From Romeriopsis navalis LEGE 11480 (GTDB taxonomy: Bacteria; Cyanobacteriota; Cyanobacteriia; Leptolyngbyales; Leptolyngbyaceae), in the NCBI RefSeq assembly GCF_015207035.1, contig NZ_JADEXQ010000001.1, positions 62,001 through 126,000 of the forward strand: a stretch of 64,000 nucleotides of DNA, in the 5' to 3' direction. The translations under genes were made by a program, and so were the position numbers. The notes beneath the pieces were generated by a model. The model searched no databases. It was not told the DNA's origin and saw only the letters and a list, made by a program, of their open reading frames with translations. Below are positions 18,440 through 25,656 of the stretch, piece after piece (the stretch's first letter is position 1; each line of letters begins with the position of its first letter).

Positions 18440-21253
18440 TCAATTGTTCCAGGAGTAGGTGGCAACCGCTGGATTCTGATAAATCACCGGCAACCAACTA
18501 GCACAGGGAAATCGGTCTTCTAAGCCTTGGAGCTTTTCCCTGGCGCTACGAACTGCCTGGTATAGGGGCTTACCGTCAGCGAAATCGACGAGAAAATGCT
18601 TCAAAAAATCTTGCGCCACTAAATCGGCTACCGGTTCCCGCATCACAATCATCTGGGGCAAATCTAAATCAGCTAGATTGGCGGCAATGCCGAGACCATC
18701 GCAGGAATTAAACACTGCTAGCTGTAAGCCTTGGGCAATTGCCTTACGCAGTCCATGCCGGAGTTGACTAATGGATAGTTGTGCCTGGGGATTAATTTGC
18801 AAATAGCCACATTCGGTATTGTCGATCGGGGGTTGTGAGCGGCTATGTCCCGCAAAAAATAGAATGTCCCAATGCTGTTCCCAGAGGGAGTCATTTAATG
18901 ATTGACGATCGGGTTTGACCAGAAATTGCACGGTGGCATTGGGGAGTTGTTCTAGTAAGGCGCGATCCTGTGCCACATCAATCCCCTGATCGTCACCCAA
19001 AATCGCTAGTATGTGCATCGATGAATCGTCGCGCTGGGGCGGGTCAATCCGCTGATAGCTCGGGGTGCTGAGTGCAAGCTCGGCTTGGGGATAACGATCG
19101 AACCAATCCCACGTCTGCAATGGTAAATGGCGCAGTTGTTGATCATCGGTTTGGACCAAAAACCGAATCACATCGTTCGGCGTTAACTGTTCGAGTAAGC
19201 GCTCTTTCAAGGGGCGAAATGTCTTGTGATTGAGCCATTGATTTACTTCTGTGATTAAGGTCGCTGCGGCTGCTTCACAGTCTTGCCAAAATGCCTGACG
19301 GCTGATGTTGGTGATTTGTGTATCGGGAATGTGGATGCGGTAGTTAGCCTGGAGGCTCTGATGATAGGCTGTTGCCCAGGTCTGATAGGCTTGCTGTAAT
19401 GCTGGTGCGGCGGGGAGACTGCCCGTGATTTCGATCGTCGGTGATGCCCCTTCACGGCTAATTTGCAATGTGACGGGAAAGCCATCGGTCAGACTGCCAC
19501 TACCAATTTTGAGCATAACGCAGTGAGGGCGCGGCTGTGGTTTTGTTTGGCTGGCAGGGCTACTCGATGCCGCTAGTAATTGGGTGATTTGTTTGAGGTC
19601 TTGTTGATGGGCACGGTGCAGGTCGATTTGGGCATCTTTCGCGGCGAGTTCTGCTCGATGTTTGGCTTCTAATGCTTGGCGCATCGTGGCGTAGGTTGCT
19701 TGAAAGGATGCATCGAGTTGCTGCTTGTTAGTTTCGGGGGCAACGGCAACTTTGATCACCATCAACCCATCGCCTTTGTGCTCGATACTTTGAACGGTTA
19801 ATTCTGTATCGCCTTGTTCGATCTGTAATTGCTGGAGGGTGCGATTGAAACTCGGCCAATCGACGCCATTTCGAATGATTAAATCAACCGTATCGATTGT
19901 CTGCTGAAACAGTTTGGTGAATTCCCCTGGATTGAAAATTCCACTGCTTGGTGCCCGCTCTTGCTGATGATTTAGCCGGTAGATAAAATCGCATTGAATA
20001 TCACTTAATTGGCTCGTCTGATTGATATTCCAGGCTTCTAGACAGGCGGCGGTGAGGTGGGTCGATCGTAAATCGGCGTCTAGCAGTTGGACGCGGGTTA
20101 AATTAGCCCGGTTGAGGTCAGCGCCGGATAAATCTGCCGCTTGCAAATTCGCATCGGTGAAATCCGCATCGGCAAGTGCCGCATTGGCCAGATAGGCCCC
20201 TTGCAGATTATGGTTACGATAATTTTGGCGCTCCCCCCGATGCGTGGTGACTAACTTGCGGATTGCTGGCTGCTGCAAAATTGTGCCTTCAAGTCGGGCT
20301 TGATTGACCTTTTGCGCCAAGTGAAAATTGGTGCGGGTGAGCTGCGCCTGGGAAAAATCGGTTTGGGCTAAGTTGACCTGTTGAAAATTCGCTGCTGTCA
20401 AATCCGCCGTGCGAAACTTCGTGCCTCCAATCGCGCAGAGAAAAATTGCGGCATGATTAATGGCTTTAAATCGATCGTCTTCCTGGCGCGTGCGCGAACC
20501 CACATATACCGATAAACCACCAAGGAGCAACGCGCAAAGCAACATCCAAGGCCAGGCATCCAAGCCGCTAACGACGGTGGAGCCAATTTGGGCATTTTTT
20601 TTGCCCAGTTCCCAGGAGGCAATTAAGGCGAGACTAAGGCCGCTCATCCAAGCGCCGATCAATAGCCGTGAGTGGCGAGGCCACAATAATTCACTGGTGG
20701 TTATGACGAGTCCGCCGAAGACCACGCCGACTAATGCCCAAGCCCAGGCTCCCGCTAATCGCCAGGCGGTTTCTTGGCCAATATTCAATCCATCACCGCC
20801 CAGCGTGGCCCAGAGGATTGCCTGGGCGATGATCAATAGCCCGGCAACACTGGCCGATAGTGTCACCAGTTTGCCGGTTAATCCCCAGCGGACTAACCCG
20901 GTCATAAAGGCTGGGAGTACCAGCAGGGTGGCGATCCCTGGTAACGGACTTTGTTGGGCAAGATAGATCGGATGGAGCAGCCGCATACTAATCACGCCAG
21001 CGACTCCGCAGCCAGCCCCTGCAACGCCAGCTAAAAGGATAATTGCACTGAGCGTCAGCAACATCCAGCGGCGACTTAGCCCGACCTTGGCTTGACGAAA
21101 ATCCGCCCCCACCAAAATGGCCTCCGAGAAATCGCTGCTACGAATATTGGCCCCGGTAAAATCAGCGCCAGTTAGATCCTGGCCACGAAACGATTGGCCT
21201 TGGAGATTTTGCCTAGCGAAGTTGTGCCGATGGAACTCGGGAGATGGGGACAT
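18440..21253 (-). CDS. Membrane-anchored pentapeptide-repeat CHAT protease-like protein
   Basis: About 937 residues in four parts. First, an N-terminal pentapeptide-repeat block (RGQDLTGADFTGANI). Second, about six transmembrane helices within residues 65-255. Third, a longer pentapeptide block (roughly 285-430, e.g. DADFTDANLQAADLSGADLN), followed by a globular linker and a short coiled coil. Fourth, a C-terminal CHAT domain with the caspase-type dyad: His in FFAGHS and Cys in VFNSCDGLG. CHAT domains are cysteine peptidases related to separase and gingipain and occur in cell-death and defence modules. It is the last gene of a sigma factor-DUF1822-CHAT cassette. The frame is open to 21310; the ATG at 21253 (MSPSPEFHRH) is preferred. 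Confidence 0.85.
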   Translation of the reverse strand: MSPSPEFHRHNFARQNLQGQSFRGQDLTGADFTGANIRSSDFSEAILVGADFRQAKVGLSRRWMLLTLSAIILLAGVAGAGCGVAGVISMRLLHPIYLAQQSPLPGIATLLVLPAFMTGLVRWGLTGKLVTLSASVAGLLIIAQAILWATLGGDGLNIGQETAWRLAGAWAWALVGVVFGGLVITTSELLWPRHSRLLIGAWMSGLSLALIASWELGKKNAQIGSTVVSGLDAWPWMLLCALLLGGLSVYVGSRTRQEDDRFKAINHAAIFLCAIGGTKFRTADLTAANFQQVNLAQTDFSQAQLTRTNFHLAQKVNQARLEGTILQQPAIRKLVTTHRGERQNYRNHNLQGAYLANAALADADFTDANLQAADLSGADLNRANLTRVQLLDADLRSTHLTAACLEAWNINQTSQLSDIQCDFIYRLNHQQERAPSSGIFNPGEFTKLFQQTIDTVDLIIRNGVDWPSFNRTLQQLQIEQGDTELTVQSIEHKGDGLMVIKVAVAPETNKQQLDASFQATYATMRQALEAKHRAELAAKDAQIDLHRAHQQDLKQITQLLAASSSPASQTKPQPRPHCVMLKIGSGSLTDGFPVTLQISREGASPTIEITGSLPAAPALQQAYQTWATAYHQSLQANYRIHIPDTQITNISRQAFWQDCEAAAATLITEVNQWLNHKTFRPLKERLLEQLTPNDVIRFLVQTDDQQLRHLPLQTWDWFDRYPQAELALSTPSYQRIDPPQRDDSSMHILAILGDDQGIDVAQDRALLEQLPNATVQFLVKPDRQSLNDSLWEQHWDILFFAGHSRSQPPIDNTECGYLQINPQAQLSISQLRHGLRKAIAQGLQLAVFNSCDGLGIAANLADLDLPQMIVMREPVADLVAQDFLKHFLVDFADGKPLYQAVRSAREKLQGLEDRFPCASWLPVIYQNPAVATYSWNN

Positions 21254-21333
21254 AAGATATGGGGTGAAATGTAGAGCACTGATGCAAAAAACGGTTGAGT
21301 CGGTTGTCAAAGTTGGTTGTTACTGGGGCCGCA

Positions 21334-22602
21334 TTACATCATAAAGTTCTCGGTTAAACCGGCTTCATCGAGTGATATCCGGACGCTAAACTGCTCACCG
21401 ATTTCGGCGGTGAGTTTGAGCTGAATGTAGCGATCCGATTGGCGGGCAGTGATTTGGCGGAGGACTTGTGCGGAGTCATCCAGTAGTGTCATTTGTAAGT
21501 TTTCTGGCAATGCTGTTGCTTGCTCGCTCGGATAGACCTGGAGCAGTACTGCCATGATGTCGCCTTGGGGGACGATCGCGACGGCTAATGCGACCGTTGC
21601 GCCTGCCACCTGCATGCCGAGATCAATCAATTTCACGCGCCGTACCCCCGCGGCTGGATTGCCGGGATCGATTTTCCAGAGGCTTTCGACTGCGGCCCAG
21701 AGGGTTTCATTATCCGCCGTGGTTTGGAGTAGCTGGACTAATGCGGTGATGGCATCAGGCTTTTGTGCGGCATCGGTGGGCAAGCGATCGCCCAACAAAA
21801 TGGCTGCCTGTCGTTGCTGTAATGCGGCATGTTCGGGGTTGAGTTGGCCAATCCATTGGGCGATTGTCGTTGCATTTGGAGTGAGGGGGTTGCCGCGCAT
21901 TGCGGGAACAAATTGTGGTGCTTGATAAAGCGTGGTGAGCATATCCCAACCCGCCGTCACCTCGGCTTTTAGCCATTGACTCAGATGGAGCAAACCTGGC
22001 TGGGTTGCATCGATTAAGTCCGTTGACGGTTGGAGTTCGATCGCTTCTAAGGCAGCCGCTTCGACGAGCTGTTCTGTGGCGTGAACGGCATAGAACTGAT
22101 GCTGGGCCTGTTGTAAGGCAAGGGTGAGTGACTGGGCGATCGTGGTTTGCTGCTGATGAAATGCTTGGATTGTTGCTTGTTGATGCGTCCCGCTGACCTT
22201 GCTCCCTAAGCCGAAATCGGCCGGATTCGGGCTACTGGGTTGGAGTTGATGATACTGATCACCGATATCCATTAAACAGTCGTAGATCGCGCGTGTGAGC
22301 CTGAACCCGATCGGTTGCACTAATGCGGATTCAAGCATGGCAAACACCTGCCATGTCTGGGCAATCACATCCTGCCTTAAGCCGGTGATGTGCCGGGGTA
22401 GCAAAATATCAATATCGCTTTGAAACTCGACTTGCGCTGATAACAGCATGATGCCAATTTCCGGTGGGGCATCAGCTTGACGCTTGCTGGGTTCACGGAC
22501 AATCATGCCGATCAAGCCATCGCCCAGTTGCCAAATTTCCCCCGGTTGGGGTGTGTGACGGTGGCTAATAGTGGATTTGAGATGGTGTAGGTCGGTACTC
22601 AT
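21334..22602 (-). CDS. DUF1822-like cyanobacterial protein
   Basis: A 422-residue soluble protein without signal peptide or membrane helices. It has an N-terminal beta-strand segment (GEIWQLGDGLIGMIV), a long glutamine-rich helical middle and a C-terminal beta-rich region ending in LTLLD/SVRISLDEAG-like strands. The shape and the position between an ECF-like sigma gene and a CHAT gene fit the DUF1822 family, which is largely confined to cyanobacteria and has no known biochemical function. The LIDLGMQVAG segment near residue 325 is typical. It is transcribed with its neighbours (gaps of 110 and 80 bases) and may regulate or be a substrate of the CHAT protein; this is inference. Confidence 0.7.
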   Translation of the reverse strand: MSTDLHHLKSTISHRHTPQPGEIWQLGDGLIGMIVREPSKRQADAPPEIGIMLLSAQVEFQSDIDILLPRHITGLRQDVIAQTWQVFAMLESALVQPIGFRLTRAIYDCLMDIGDQYHQLQPSSPNPADFGLGSKVSGTHQQATIQAFHQQQTTIAQSLTLALQQAQHQFYAVHATEQLVEAAALEAIELQPSTDLIDATQPGLLHLSQWLKAEVTAGWDMLTTLYQAPQFVPAMRGNPLTPNATTIAQWIGQLNPEHAALQQRQAAILLGDRLPTDAAQKPDAITALVQLLQTTADNETLWAAVESLWKIDPGNPAAGVRRVKLIDLGMQVAGATVALAVAIVPQGDIMAVLLQVYPSEQATALPENLQMTLLDDSAQVLRQITARQSDRYIQLKLTAEIGEQFSVRISLDEAGLTENFMM

Positions 22603-22712
22603 GGGTGTCTCAGTAGCAGTAGCGTTGCAGCAATCAAGCGGGTATTAGGGTTAACGAATTAGCTCGATCGAATATGCCATGATCACAAAAGTTTTTGGAT
22701 AATGCGGGAACT

Positions 22713-23408
22713 TTACCATGACATTTGCGATCTCCCACGGGCTTCGCTAGGGGCGGGGGCCTTGATTTGCGTTGGTGGTTCGAGCCAGCCGAGATGCGCT
22801 GTGAGCTTCCGAATTAGCTCCTTCCAGCGTTTGGAGATGGCGCTTTGGGTCAGGCCTAACTCGGTGGCCAGATCCGTTTGGCGTTTGCCTGTGAGTTTGG
22901 CTTGCCAGAGTTTGAGGAAGCATTTATCCGGCTGGGCGGCATCGAGTTCAAAAATTGCGGCGATCGCCTGCTCCACCAAATCGTTCTGCACCAAACTATC
23001 CAGCGCATTAAAATCATCGGCCACGAGTTCCAGCCATGTTGTTTGCCCCTCGGAGAGGGTTTGATCGAGGCTCGAGCAGCGTTGCCGTTTTTCTTTGCGC
23101 ACCAGGTCAATGATCTCAAACCGGGCAACACTGCTGGCCCAACGATAAAAAGCGGCGGCATCCCCTTGCCGGAATTTCCCGGCCCGGAAGGCTTTTAAGA
23201 GTTTGGTTTGGGCTGACTGGGCGGCATCCTGCCAGTCGAGACCGCTGCCTCGGGTTTGTTTTCGGGCGATGCGCTCGATGCGCTTTATATGATCCGGGTG
23301 ACACAATAATTGCTCACCATCAATATCGGCATCATCGTCGCCCCATGGGGTATTGGGGGAAGGTGATGAATTATCAAGAAGATTACGCACAGGTTCTGAA
23401 GTCAACAT
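22713..23408 (-). CDS. ECF-like sigma-70 family RNA polymerase sigma factor
   Basis: A 231-residue protein with region 2 (LDWQDAAQSAQTKLLKAFRAG through FYRWASSVARFEIIDLVRKEKR) and region 4 (TDLATELGLTQSAISKRWKELIRKL), without regions 1 and 3, as in ECF sigma factors. There is an acidic N-terminal tail (WGDDDADIDGEQ). No separate anti-sigma gene is beside it; the downstream DUF1822 gene occupies that place. It is the first gene of the CHAT cassette and likely drives a stress-inducible transcript, possibly including its own operon. Confidence 0.82.
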   Translation of the reverse strand: MLTSEPVRNLLDNSSPSPNTPWGDDDADIDGEQLLCHPDHIKRIERIARKQTRGSGLDWQDAAQSAQTKLLKAFRAGKFRQGDAAAFYRWASSVARFEIIDLVRKEKRQRCSSLDQTLSEGQTTWLELVADDFNALDSLVQNDLVEQAIAAIFELDAAQPDKCFLKLWQAKLTGKRQTDLATELGLTQSAISKRWKELIRKLTAHLGWLEPPTQIKAPAPSEARGRSQMSW

Positions 23409-23709: not shown

Positions 23710-24657
23710 ATGACTCACGCATCAAACCGTCAAAGGATACAACGCTTCATGCTCGGTGGTTTGGCCATGTTGGTCACGGCCCCAGTCCTAGTTGCCCCAG
23801 CCGTTGCCTTTACCCCCGCCCCCGATGGTCCGGATGGCCTACCCGGCATCCCTGGTGGCATTCCGGGTGGCATTCCGGGCGGCATTCCTGAGTTGCCCAA
23901 ACCAAAACTTCCGAAGCCGAAGCGTCCGACGCTGAAGCCCTTTAGTTGCGGTCCCCACCTTGCGACCTTTGTTGTGCGATCGCGTACAGCGAAACGTCGG
24001 GGTCGCGGTATTCGCTGTGTGAAATTTAGTAATGGGACAGTGCGTAACCGTCGAACACCGAAGATCGCCTGGTACGGTGAAGGCAATTGGTCGGGTAAAA
24101 CCTATCGCCATATGGGGCATGCCTTCTACCGTGGACGCAAGGTGATGCAGGGCTATGCCTCGGATATTTACGGCAATGGCGAAAGCTATAAGAATAACTT
24201 TAATGGCAATTTACGTGTTCAGCTCATTAATGCCAATCGCATTCGGGTGACAGGGGCCTGGAATGAGGATTGGATTCGGGTCAAGCGTACGGCCTATAAG
24301 CCCCTGCGTCGTCCTCGGGTATGTGGTAAATACTTTGATCAGTATCGTGTGGCGGACTTAATTTCACCGCTAAGAAGGGGGCGGAAAGGCACCGGTTTAC
24401 GATGTGTCTTAAAGGCTGGTCCAGTAGGCACCTATGCGCCAAAGCGATTCTTCACCACTTGGTTTGGTAATGGCAATTGGCAACGTAACTTATATTCTCA
24501 TGTCGGGACGCGAGCGACAAAAGGGGCTGGTGCTAGTGATATCTGTGGGACCACCTTTGGGCCAGTATGTAATAAATTCCCCTATGGCTCACTGAAAATC
24601 AAGCCAGTTGTGGGTGGTTATAACGTGACCGGGGCATGGCGTGAAAAGTGGCGCTAA
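23710..24657 (+). CDS. Secreted protein with GIPG repeat linker and two homologous C-terminal domains
   Basis: A 315-residue protein. An N-terminal signal peptide ends near residue 33 (APAVAF). A low-complexity linker follows with four GIPG units and a lysine-proline tract (PKPKLPKPKRP). The rest is two related domains of about 110 residues: one starts near RGRGIRCVKFSNG and ends VTGAWNEDW, the other starts near KGTGLRCVLKAG and ends VTGAWREKW; each has a WxGxGNW segment. No known family was recognised. A strong AAGGA ribosome binding site precedes the ATG. The protein is very basic, which suggests binding to an acidic polymer such as a polysaccharide. Confidence 0.75.
   Translation: MTHASNRQRIQRFMLGGLAMLVTAPVLVAPAVAFTPAPDGPDGLPGIPGGIPGGIPGGIPELPKPKLPKPKRPTLKPFSCGPHLATFVVRSRTAKRRGRGIRCVKFSNGTVRNRRTPKIAWYGEGNWSGKTYRHMGHAFYRGRKVMQGYASDIYGNGESYKNNFNGNLRVQLINANRIRVTGAWNEDWIRVKRTAYKPLRRPRVCGKYFDQYRVADLISPLRRGRKGTGLRCVLKAGPVGTYAPKRFFTTWFGNGNWQRNLYSHVGTRATKGAGASDICGTTFGPVCNKFPYGSLKIKPVVGGYNVTGAWREKWR
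23845..23892 (+). repeat. 12-bp tandem repeat encoding GIPG
   Basis: Four tandem copies of a 12-base unit of the form GGCATYCCKGGY, in frame, encode four GIPG units of the secreted protein's linker; the last copy ends in Glu instead of Gly. Such tracts vary in copy number by slippage. Confidence 0.85.
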
Positions 24658-24969: not shown

Positions 24970-25656
24970 ATGGTGTGTGCCCCAGAAATTCATTCCGTCC
25001 GCCCTTTGAAAATTGTTACTCGCAGCAATGCTAATTCGAGATTGAAATCATCGTCTCTGCGTGATCAAAATCACTTGGATAATGCTAAGGCTCATGATCA
25101 ATTTTCATTACTAGAAATTGTTCTAGAAACGCTGCTTGATGCAGTTGTGATTGTGAATTCGGATGGTGAAATATTGCGTGCGAATGCGAAGGCGATCAAG
25201 TTGTGCGATCGGCTTTTAGTCGAAGAATCGAAGCAATCTGATGTGCGATATCGCTCGGAACATCAGTTGCCGATCGTCATCCGGTCAATTTTGGCGGCAT
25301 TACTCGAAAGTCAGGTGTTATTCCCGGAGCAGCGAGTTTTGCCAGAGTTTGAGGTGTATTTGGACGATGGGACGCCGCTGCGGATTCGCGGTCAATTGCT
25401 CGATATTCCCCGCTCGGATACGGATGTGCCCTATAGCTTAATCACGATTGAAAATCGTCAGGAGTCCTTGCATAGCGTGGCGATCGGGGATGCCCAGCGA
25501 TTTGGGTTTACGCCCCGTGAAACGGAAGTCTGGCATTTACGTTTACTTGGGCATTCCTACCGAGAAATTTCGACGATGTTATTCATCACTGAAAATACAG
25601 TACGGAAGCATGTAAAAAGTGTGCTGGCTAAGCGTCGGGTTGAGCTAGATGACTGA
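24970..25656 (+). CDS. PAS domain LuxR-family transcriptional regulator
   Basis: A 228-residue protein: a 45-residue polar N-terminus, a PAS-like sensory domain (ETLLDAVVIVNSDGEILRAN) and a C-terminal LuxR/GerE helix-turn-helix (FTPRETEVWHLRLLGHSYREI, then TENTVRKHVKSVLAKRRV). No receiver domain is present, so it is not a classical response regulator; a ligand or redox signal through PAS is likely. An AGGAG box lies ten bases before the ATG. It stands alone; no histidine kinase gene is in the window. Confidence 0.82.
   Translation: MVCAPEIHSVRPLKIVTRSNANSRLKSSSLRDQNHLDNAKAHDQFSLLEIVLETLLDAVVIVNSDGEILRANAKAIKLCDRLLVEESKQSDVRYRSEHQLPIVIRSILAALLESQVLFPEQRVLPEFEVYLDDGTPLRIRGQLLDIPRSDTDVPYSLITIENRQESLHSVAIGDAQRFGFTPRETEVWHLRLLGHSYREISTMLFITENTVRKHVKSVLAKRRVELDD

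Follow-up and report, generated by a model that had tools for sequence, protein, structure and literature searches.

The minus strand of a 64,000-nucleotide stretch of the cyanobacterium Romeriopsis navalis LEGE 11480 (contig NZ_JADEXQ010000001.1, positions 62,001 to 126,000; hereafter the window) encodes, side by side, an extracytoplasmic function (ECF)-like sigma factor, a DUF1822 protein and a membrane CHAT protease. We favor, with moderate confidence, the view that these constitute a one-pathway signaling module in which a membrane sensor-protease would control the sigma factor through DUF1822, acting as a two-part anti-sigma factor. This proposal draws on gene order, domain architecture, conservation of a catalytic dyad, covariation of the two parts of DUF1822 with different partners, the joint loss of one of these parts and the protease, and a conserved sigma factor tail. 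The three genes are:

22713..23408, minus strand: ECF-like sigma factor of 231 amino acids, regions 2 and 4 (Sigma70_r2, 2.5e-7; TIGR02937, 3.5e-13)
21334..22602, minus strand: DUF1822 protein of 422 amino acids, a two-part adaptor and proposed anti-sigma factor (Pfam DUF1822, 2.6e-32), its halves covarying with different partners
18440..21310, minus strand: membrane CHAT protease of 956 amino acids counted from TTG (Pfam pentapeptide and CHAT; EACC2-CHAT at residues 598-954)

Domains of the three proteins were called by Pfam and NCBIfam searches, which place a CHAT domain (2.9e-9) and pentapeptide blocks in the third. Only 110 bases separate the sigma factor and DUF1822 genes, and 23 bases the DUF1822 and CHAT genes. 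A preliminary description of this DNA had reported three same-strand genes in the order sigma factor, DUF1822, CHAT, and the coordinates and domain matches bear this out.

In the proposed pathway, the N-terminal half (N-half) of DUF1822, with a predicted MazF fold, would bind the sigma factor and keep it inactive, and the C-terminal RSxxxW tail of the sigma factor would hold this half as the tail of MazE is bound by MazF. The EACC2-CHAT protease would recognize, and probably cut, the C-terminal half (C-half), which is predicted to comprise HEAT-like helices and an immunoglobulin (Ig)-like sandwich. The pentapeptide and membrane region of the protease would anchor it and sense an envelope or membrane signal; on this trigger, cleavage or remodeling of DUF1822 would release the sigma factor.

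Recurrence of the cassette

Of 117 genomes sampled from the phylum, 81 have DUF1822. The source genome (G000; 6.47 Mb) holds seven DUF1822 genes, five of them followed by a related EACC2-CHAT gene. We read 66 DUF1822 loci, the window included, chosen mostly from the stronger matches, so that the fractions are not unbiased. A sigma-like open reading frame (ORF) lies directly upstream on the same strand in 61 of the 66; 60 of these ORFs fall into one single-linkage BLAST cluster, to which the window's sigma factor was added by profile. Many of the clustered ORFs have no Pfam match of their own and are therefore taken as divergent sigma factors. An EACC2-CHAT gene follows downstream in 41/66 loci, within 500 bp in 40 of them. 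The conserved adjacency on which the preliminary description had staked its proposal is found in other genomes, and the sigma factor, DUF1822 and CHAT genes form a recurrent cassette that is more than coincidence.

Six loci that lack EACC2-CHAT carry another protease in the third slot, namely a TPR-CHAT protein (L055, L056, L057, L101), a C14 caspase (L099) or a tandem trypsin (L079). This swap suggests that the conserved role of the third slot is proteolysis.

Weak profile matches to DUF1822, mainly to its N-terminal part, were also seen inside ORFs of ~1000 amino acids in most small (~2-Mb) genomes of another class of the phylum, G023, G034, G067 and others of family f23 among them.

The two halves of DUF1822 and the sigma factor tail

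DUF1822 appears to consist of two parts, the N-half matched to the class of the sigma factor and the C-half to the protease:

21985..22602, minus strand: N-half, residues 1-206, proposed sigma-binding domain (MazF/PemK-like fold predicted from homologue L131; N-half-only loci)
21337..21984, minus strand: C-half, residues 207-422, proposed protease-facing part (HEAT-like helices and Ig-like beta-sandwich; covaries with EACC2-CHAT, rho 0.77)

The Pfam DUF1822 model reaches only residues 182-421 of the window protein (2.6e-32), and no relation was detectable between the window-type N-half and the N-domain of ordinary DUF1822 proteins (hhalign E 0.55). Covariation was computed from normalized BLAST similarity across 45 complete loci, with an alignment-based boundary between the halves; an earlier automatic and uneven split gave the same result. 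Similarity among sigma factors followed that among N-halves (rho 0.62, partial 0.62, 0/1000 permutations), with a partial rho of -0.03 for the C-half, and similarity among C-halves followed that among the EACC2-CHAT proteins. Both signals were stronger with the window type left out (0.70 for sigma factor and N-half, 0.81 for C-half and EACC2-CHAT). The preliminary description had put DUF1822 at the place of an anti-sigma factor or a substrate, which looks right on both counts, each for a different half.

Loci with the N-half alone point the same way. In six Nostocales loci (L131, L132, L133, L143, L144, L146) a window-type sigma factor is followed by a protein of 222-265 amino acids that corresponds to the N-half only, and neither a C-half nor EACC2-CHAT was found within the 15-17 kb examined around them. 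One of these, L143, keeps an upstream pentapeptide-membrane protein, 30% identical to window residues 29-562, without the protease. L154 and L155 carry the N-half fused to WD40 repeats, in a protein of ~1300 amino acids beside a related sigma factor.

These patterns bear on an unlikely scaffold arrangement, in which the CHAT protein would cleave itself to become active and DUF1822, uncut, would serve the sigma factor as a positive adaptor or chaperone and not as an inhibitor. Kaur et al. (2021; PMC8195603) suggest that EACC2-caspase systems are activated as autopeptidases, and L143, with its membrane protein and N-half, suggests that some of the circuit may work without DUF1822 cleavage. However, six loci have lost C-half and protease jointly, and where both are present they covary; a bystander would explain this less well than a substrate or direct partner. 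Moreover, in the demonstrated CHAT-sigma module the middle protein is both inhibitor and substrate: in type III-E CASP, CASP-sigma is held by the N-terminal domain of Csx30, and a cut made by the CHAT protease Csx29 in the C-terminal domain of Csx30 relieves inhibition (PMC10028731).

The sigma factor offers a candidate contact for the N-half. Sigma factors of the window type (>75 bits) occur in about 16 of 390 genomes; all 20 sequences in a sigma factor alignment match TIGR02937, and region 2 and the helix-turn-helix of region 4 are conserved with no region 3, as in ECF sigma factors. A PDB sequence search with the window's sigma factor returned general ECF sigma factors only. After a variable linker, these proteins end in a conserved motif:

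22716..22733, minus strand: RSQMSW, an RSxxxW tail proposed to dock on the N-half of DUF1822 (motif count among window-type sigma factors)

The strict motif closes 19 of 23 window-type sigma factors, as against 0/60 sigma factors of other classes and 1/648 ORFs over 150 amino acids. It departs to CSTKQW in L132 and to RRSQxGY in the WD40-associated L154 and L155, and is absent from L145 (G280), where the window-type sigma factor also lacks an adjacent N-half and no N-half was found in the genome. Trp-bearing MazE peptides bind MazF proteins, MazF-mt1 among them (PMC8145246), and by analogy the RSxxxW tail may dock on the N-half. Six loci (L129, L137, L138, L139, L141, L142) share an ATTCC-centered motif 100-200 bases before the start of the window-type sigma factor gene, in the form TATTCCGAAAT in L138, L141 and L142; the same promoter search yielded none in the window.

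Structures were predicted for both halves of DUF1822, for which a PDB sequence search gave zero matches. AlphaFold2 modeled only the C-half of the window protein with confidence (predicted local distance difference test, pLDDT, mostly 65-90 over residues 241-421), placing helices at 244-311, in agreement with a weak HEAT match, and a beta-sandwich at 328-421 with Ig-like Foldseek matches (E ~1e-3). The N-half was modeled from homologue L131 with six sequences (pLDDT 69; predicted template modeling score, pTM, 0.63). The 50 best Foldseek matches listed for this model were all of the MazF family (best E 8.3e-5; template modeling score normalized to target mostly 0.6-0.7), with MazF-mt1 as the best. 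Hints at MazF preceded the fold search, in an N-terminal PxPGEIW motif and a PDB profile search with an mRNA interferase as best match (E 0.044); hhalign against a cyanobacterial PemK/MazF profile was weak (P 0.039), and Pfam PemK did not match the N-half. We regard a MazF-like fold of the N-half as likely.

The fold invites the thought of a toxin-antitoxin-like switch, with the N-half a ribonuclease restrained by the sigma factor tail and proteolysis freeing both toxin and sigma factor to cause growth arrest, which we regard as very improbable. Alongside the predicted fold, such a switch could account for the Arg that 14/16 N-halves keep at the RPxLVIS-like position and for the Ser or Thr that all 16 have in the following motif, and the MazF groove is known to bind Trp-containing MazE peptides (PMC8145246). 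Yet the profile similarity to MazF is weak, and in two genomes the N-half is fused to WD40 repeats. We do not call the N-half a MazF/PemK toxin, as the catalytic Arg customary in such toxins varies among N-halves and its segment is deleted in the window. The resemblance to MazEF/PemIK accordingly concerns the predicted fold and the flexible, Trp-bearing tail of the partner; unlike in those systems, the partner here is a sigma factor and the N-half forms part of larger adaptor or WD40 proteins.

Several points weigh against a two-part anti-sigma factor under protease control. Sigma factor binding and inhibition, DUF1822 cleavage, the stimulus and the regulon are all putative. About 19 of the 66 DUF1822 loci have neither an adjoining EACC2-CHAT gene nor another recognized protease. 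AlphaFold2 gave no reliable N-half for the window protein (seven usable sequences), which is ~30 residues short in a loop relative to its homologues, and the N-half model built on L131 is of moderate confidence. Csx30 gave no PDB sequence match to DUF1822 and was absent among the 50 best Foldseek matches listed for the C-half, a comparison in which the N-half was not reliably modeled. Pairs with clearly similar sigma factors co-inherit everything (sigma-protease 0.71, sigma-C-half 0.64, sigma-N-half 0.38), so the signal between sigma factor and N-half is a matching of classes and not fine coevolution. Linear operon linkage, with breakpoints between the halves, would produce the same pattern; even so, the covariation marks where exchange is tolerated. 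As far as the sequences indicate, sigma factor classes and N-half classes match, whereas the C-half and the protease are common across classes.

Going further, and only tentatively, DUF1822 could represent a new class of anti-sigma factors on the MazF toxin fold, on which a sigma factor with a MazE-like RSxxxW peptide docks, the other half being a handle for release by interchangeable receptor-proteases. If true, this would give DUF1822 a function and the MazF fold a non-toxin role. The distinction between a sigma-matched and a protease-matched half of DUF1822 makes specific tests possible.

The protease, its sensor parts and known systems

From its N-terminus, the third protein runs through two pentapeptide blocks with a membrane region between them, then a linker, to a C-terminal peptidase region:

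21083..21223, minus strand: pentapeptide block 1, residues ~30-76 (Pfam Pentapeptide_3 and Pentapeptide)
20495..21067, minus strand: membrane region, residues ~82-272, with six hydrophobic segments, one of them weaker (hydropathy maxima at 89, 122, 148, 185, 216 and 252)
20015..20443, minus strand: pentapeptide block 2, residues ~290-432 (Pfam Pentapeptide, 4.9e-27)
18449..19519, minus strand: EACC2-like alpha+beta domain and CHAT peptidase, residues 598-954, C-terminal here (profile match over full length)
18845..18847, minus strand: codon of the putative catalytic His822 (TTG numbering), in FFAGHS (His in 50/50 aligned relatives having the column)
18701..18703, minus strand: codon of the putative catalytic Cys870 (TTG numbering), in FNSCDG (Cys in 49/49 aligned relatives having the column)

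The two pentapeptide blocks joined to CHAT in the preliminary description were recovered. Of the six membrane helices that it counted, five are clear hydropathy segments and the sixth, at ~216, is weaker, which leaves six plausible. It had named absence of the His-Cys dyad from homologues as grounds for abandoning the proposal; both residues are invariant wherever the column is present. Met20, 19 codons downstream of the annotated TTG, is the more likely start, since the relative L128 aligns from window residue 31. A PDB sequence search with the protein matched pentapeptide structures only. An alpha+beta domain immediately precedes the caspase-like (CHAT) domain, with a full-length profile match, and its identification as the EACC2 domain of Kaur et al. 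rests on architecture and context, not on their alignment.

The orientation of this module sets the window type apart. EACC2-CHAT is N-terminal in all 40 relatives of other types with a variable part that could be placed, whereas in the window and in L128, L137, L138, L139, L141, L142, L150 and L151 it lies at the C-terminus, after the pentapeptide and membrane segments. These eight other loci carry the complete inverted cassette, bringing the pentapeptide-membrane type to nine; L128 is from Plectonema cf. radiosum LEGE 06105. The variable parts attached to EACC2-CHAT are freely swapped; identified by domain searches of cluster representatives only, they are CHASE2 (two clusters, 27 loci), a periplasmic binding protein (six), nSTAND1-WD40 (three) and, in single cases, NACHT, NB-ARC-TPR, TPR and HEAT. 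In a natural exchange of the sensor part, the related genomes L148 and L157 pair a window-type N-half with a protein that begins with EACC2-CHAT and ends in a membrane region (CHASE2 confirmed in L148), and they have DUF928 as well.

A DUF928 gene follows the CHASE2-type CHAT gene in 15/21 loci of the main CHASE2 cluster and in none of any other type, the window's included, which suggests a CHASE2-specific partner. We discarded DUF928 as a general part of the cassette, as it is seen behind the main CHASE2 type alone. The loci concerned are:

DUF928-linked CHASE2 loci: L040, L060, L065, L066, L069, L070, L071, L072, L080, L087, L089, L095, L130, L148

The range of variable parts also speaks to a conflict or cell-death system, in which the protease would be an effector that kills the cell or cuts invader proteins and the sigma factor would merely drive the operon. 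Kaur et al. (2021; PMC8195603) do count EACC2-caspase systems among predicted conflict systems, and some relatives bear STAND, NACHT or NB-ARC sensors; nevertheless, we give this explanation little credence, as most variable parts are CHASE2 or periplasmic-binding receptors, which suits environmental sensing, PADLOC returned no match, and a sigma-class-specific N-half would be needless for a killing protease. On the same findings, nothing specific supports the tie to cell death or phage defense drawn in the preliminary description.

Its claim that the neighborhood lacked a description does not hold either. The triad is already known in silico: Kaur et al. (2021; PMC8195603) named EACC2-caspase genes with ECF sigma factor and DUF1822 neighbors, without experiments, and left the roles of the three proteins open. 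The window shares with those systems the alpha+beta domain followed by CHAT and the adjoining ECF sigma factor and DUF1822 genes. Their account describes the constant module as N-terminal and the variable part as C-terminal, so the window and its eight relatives, with a C-terminal constant module, form a variant and not plain members. It also calls DUF1822 a TPR protein, unlike the HEAT-like, Ig-like and MazF-like parts of the models here, and in the text consulted the halves are not assigned to partners, nor is the sigma factor tail mentioned. Beyond this account, the present analysis adds a subtype with inverted order, a DUF1822 protein in two parts that go with different partners, a likely MazF fold of one of them and the conserved tail of the sigma factor. 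What stands of the signal-switched membrane protease module first suggested is a membrane-tethered protease apparently connected to a sigma factor with DUF1822 as intermediary, which is well supported by conservation, the dyad, covariation and protease replacement.

In its logic the proposed pathway resembles type III-E CASP (Csx29 TPR-CHAT/Csx30/CASP-sigma), with a CHAT protease and a middle protein divided between an N-terminal part associated with an ECF sigma factor and a C-terminal part associated with the protease. It differs in that the window protease is membrane-anchored, a proposed membrane sensor replacing the RNA-guided effector. No Cas genes were among the genes read beside the cassette, and no genome-wide search for Cas7-11 was made. 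Against the CASP-sigma model NF041236 the window's sigma factor scores 34.2 bits (cut-off 100), and SigBFG and other general models match the same relatives, the CASP-sigma model no better. As the sigma factor is far below that cut-off and no similarity to Csx30 was found by sequence or among the fold matches listed, membership in CRISPR CASP is unsupported.

The regulated proteolysis of anti-sigma factors known from RseA/DegS and RsiW offers a further parallel, in that a membrane-linked protease sets a sigma factor free; the proteins are unrelated, however, and here the protease itself bears the membrane and sensor region whereas the candidate anti-sigma factor is soluble. If the pathway is as proposed, cyanobacteria would possess a modular family of receptor-protease-sigma systems that parallels the CRISPR CASP switch and may share its design; that switch may then be one case of a wider protease-to-sigma design, and many cyanobacterial receptor-CHAT proteins would gain a plausible output in a sigma factor.

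Adjoining genes

The genes adjoining the window cassette include an ATPase-like ORF, a RecF/SMC-type gene and a LuxR-type regulator. On the opposite strand lies a further candidate member:

23710..24657, plus strand: divergent gene for a putative secreted protein of 315 amino acids, a possible unit or sigma-regulon member (rare family, repeatedly divergent from sigma-DUF1822)

Its product has no Pfam domain, and the family is found in 11 of 291 genomes. Members lie immediately next to a sigma-DUF1822 pair, transcribed away from it, both in the window and in the Nostocales-type genomes G019, G024 and G042, where the adjacent sigma factor is of another class than the window's. This gene is a possible target or partner of the cassette. 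Further along the plus strand, 24970-25656 encodes a PAS-LuxR type regulator; L137 and L139 have homologues 36% identical to it, in divergent orientation next to their window-type cassettes.

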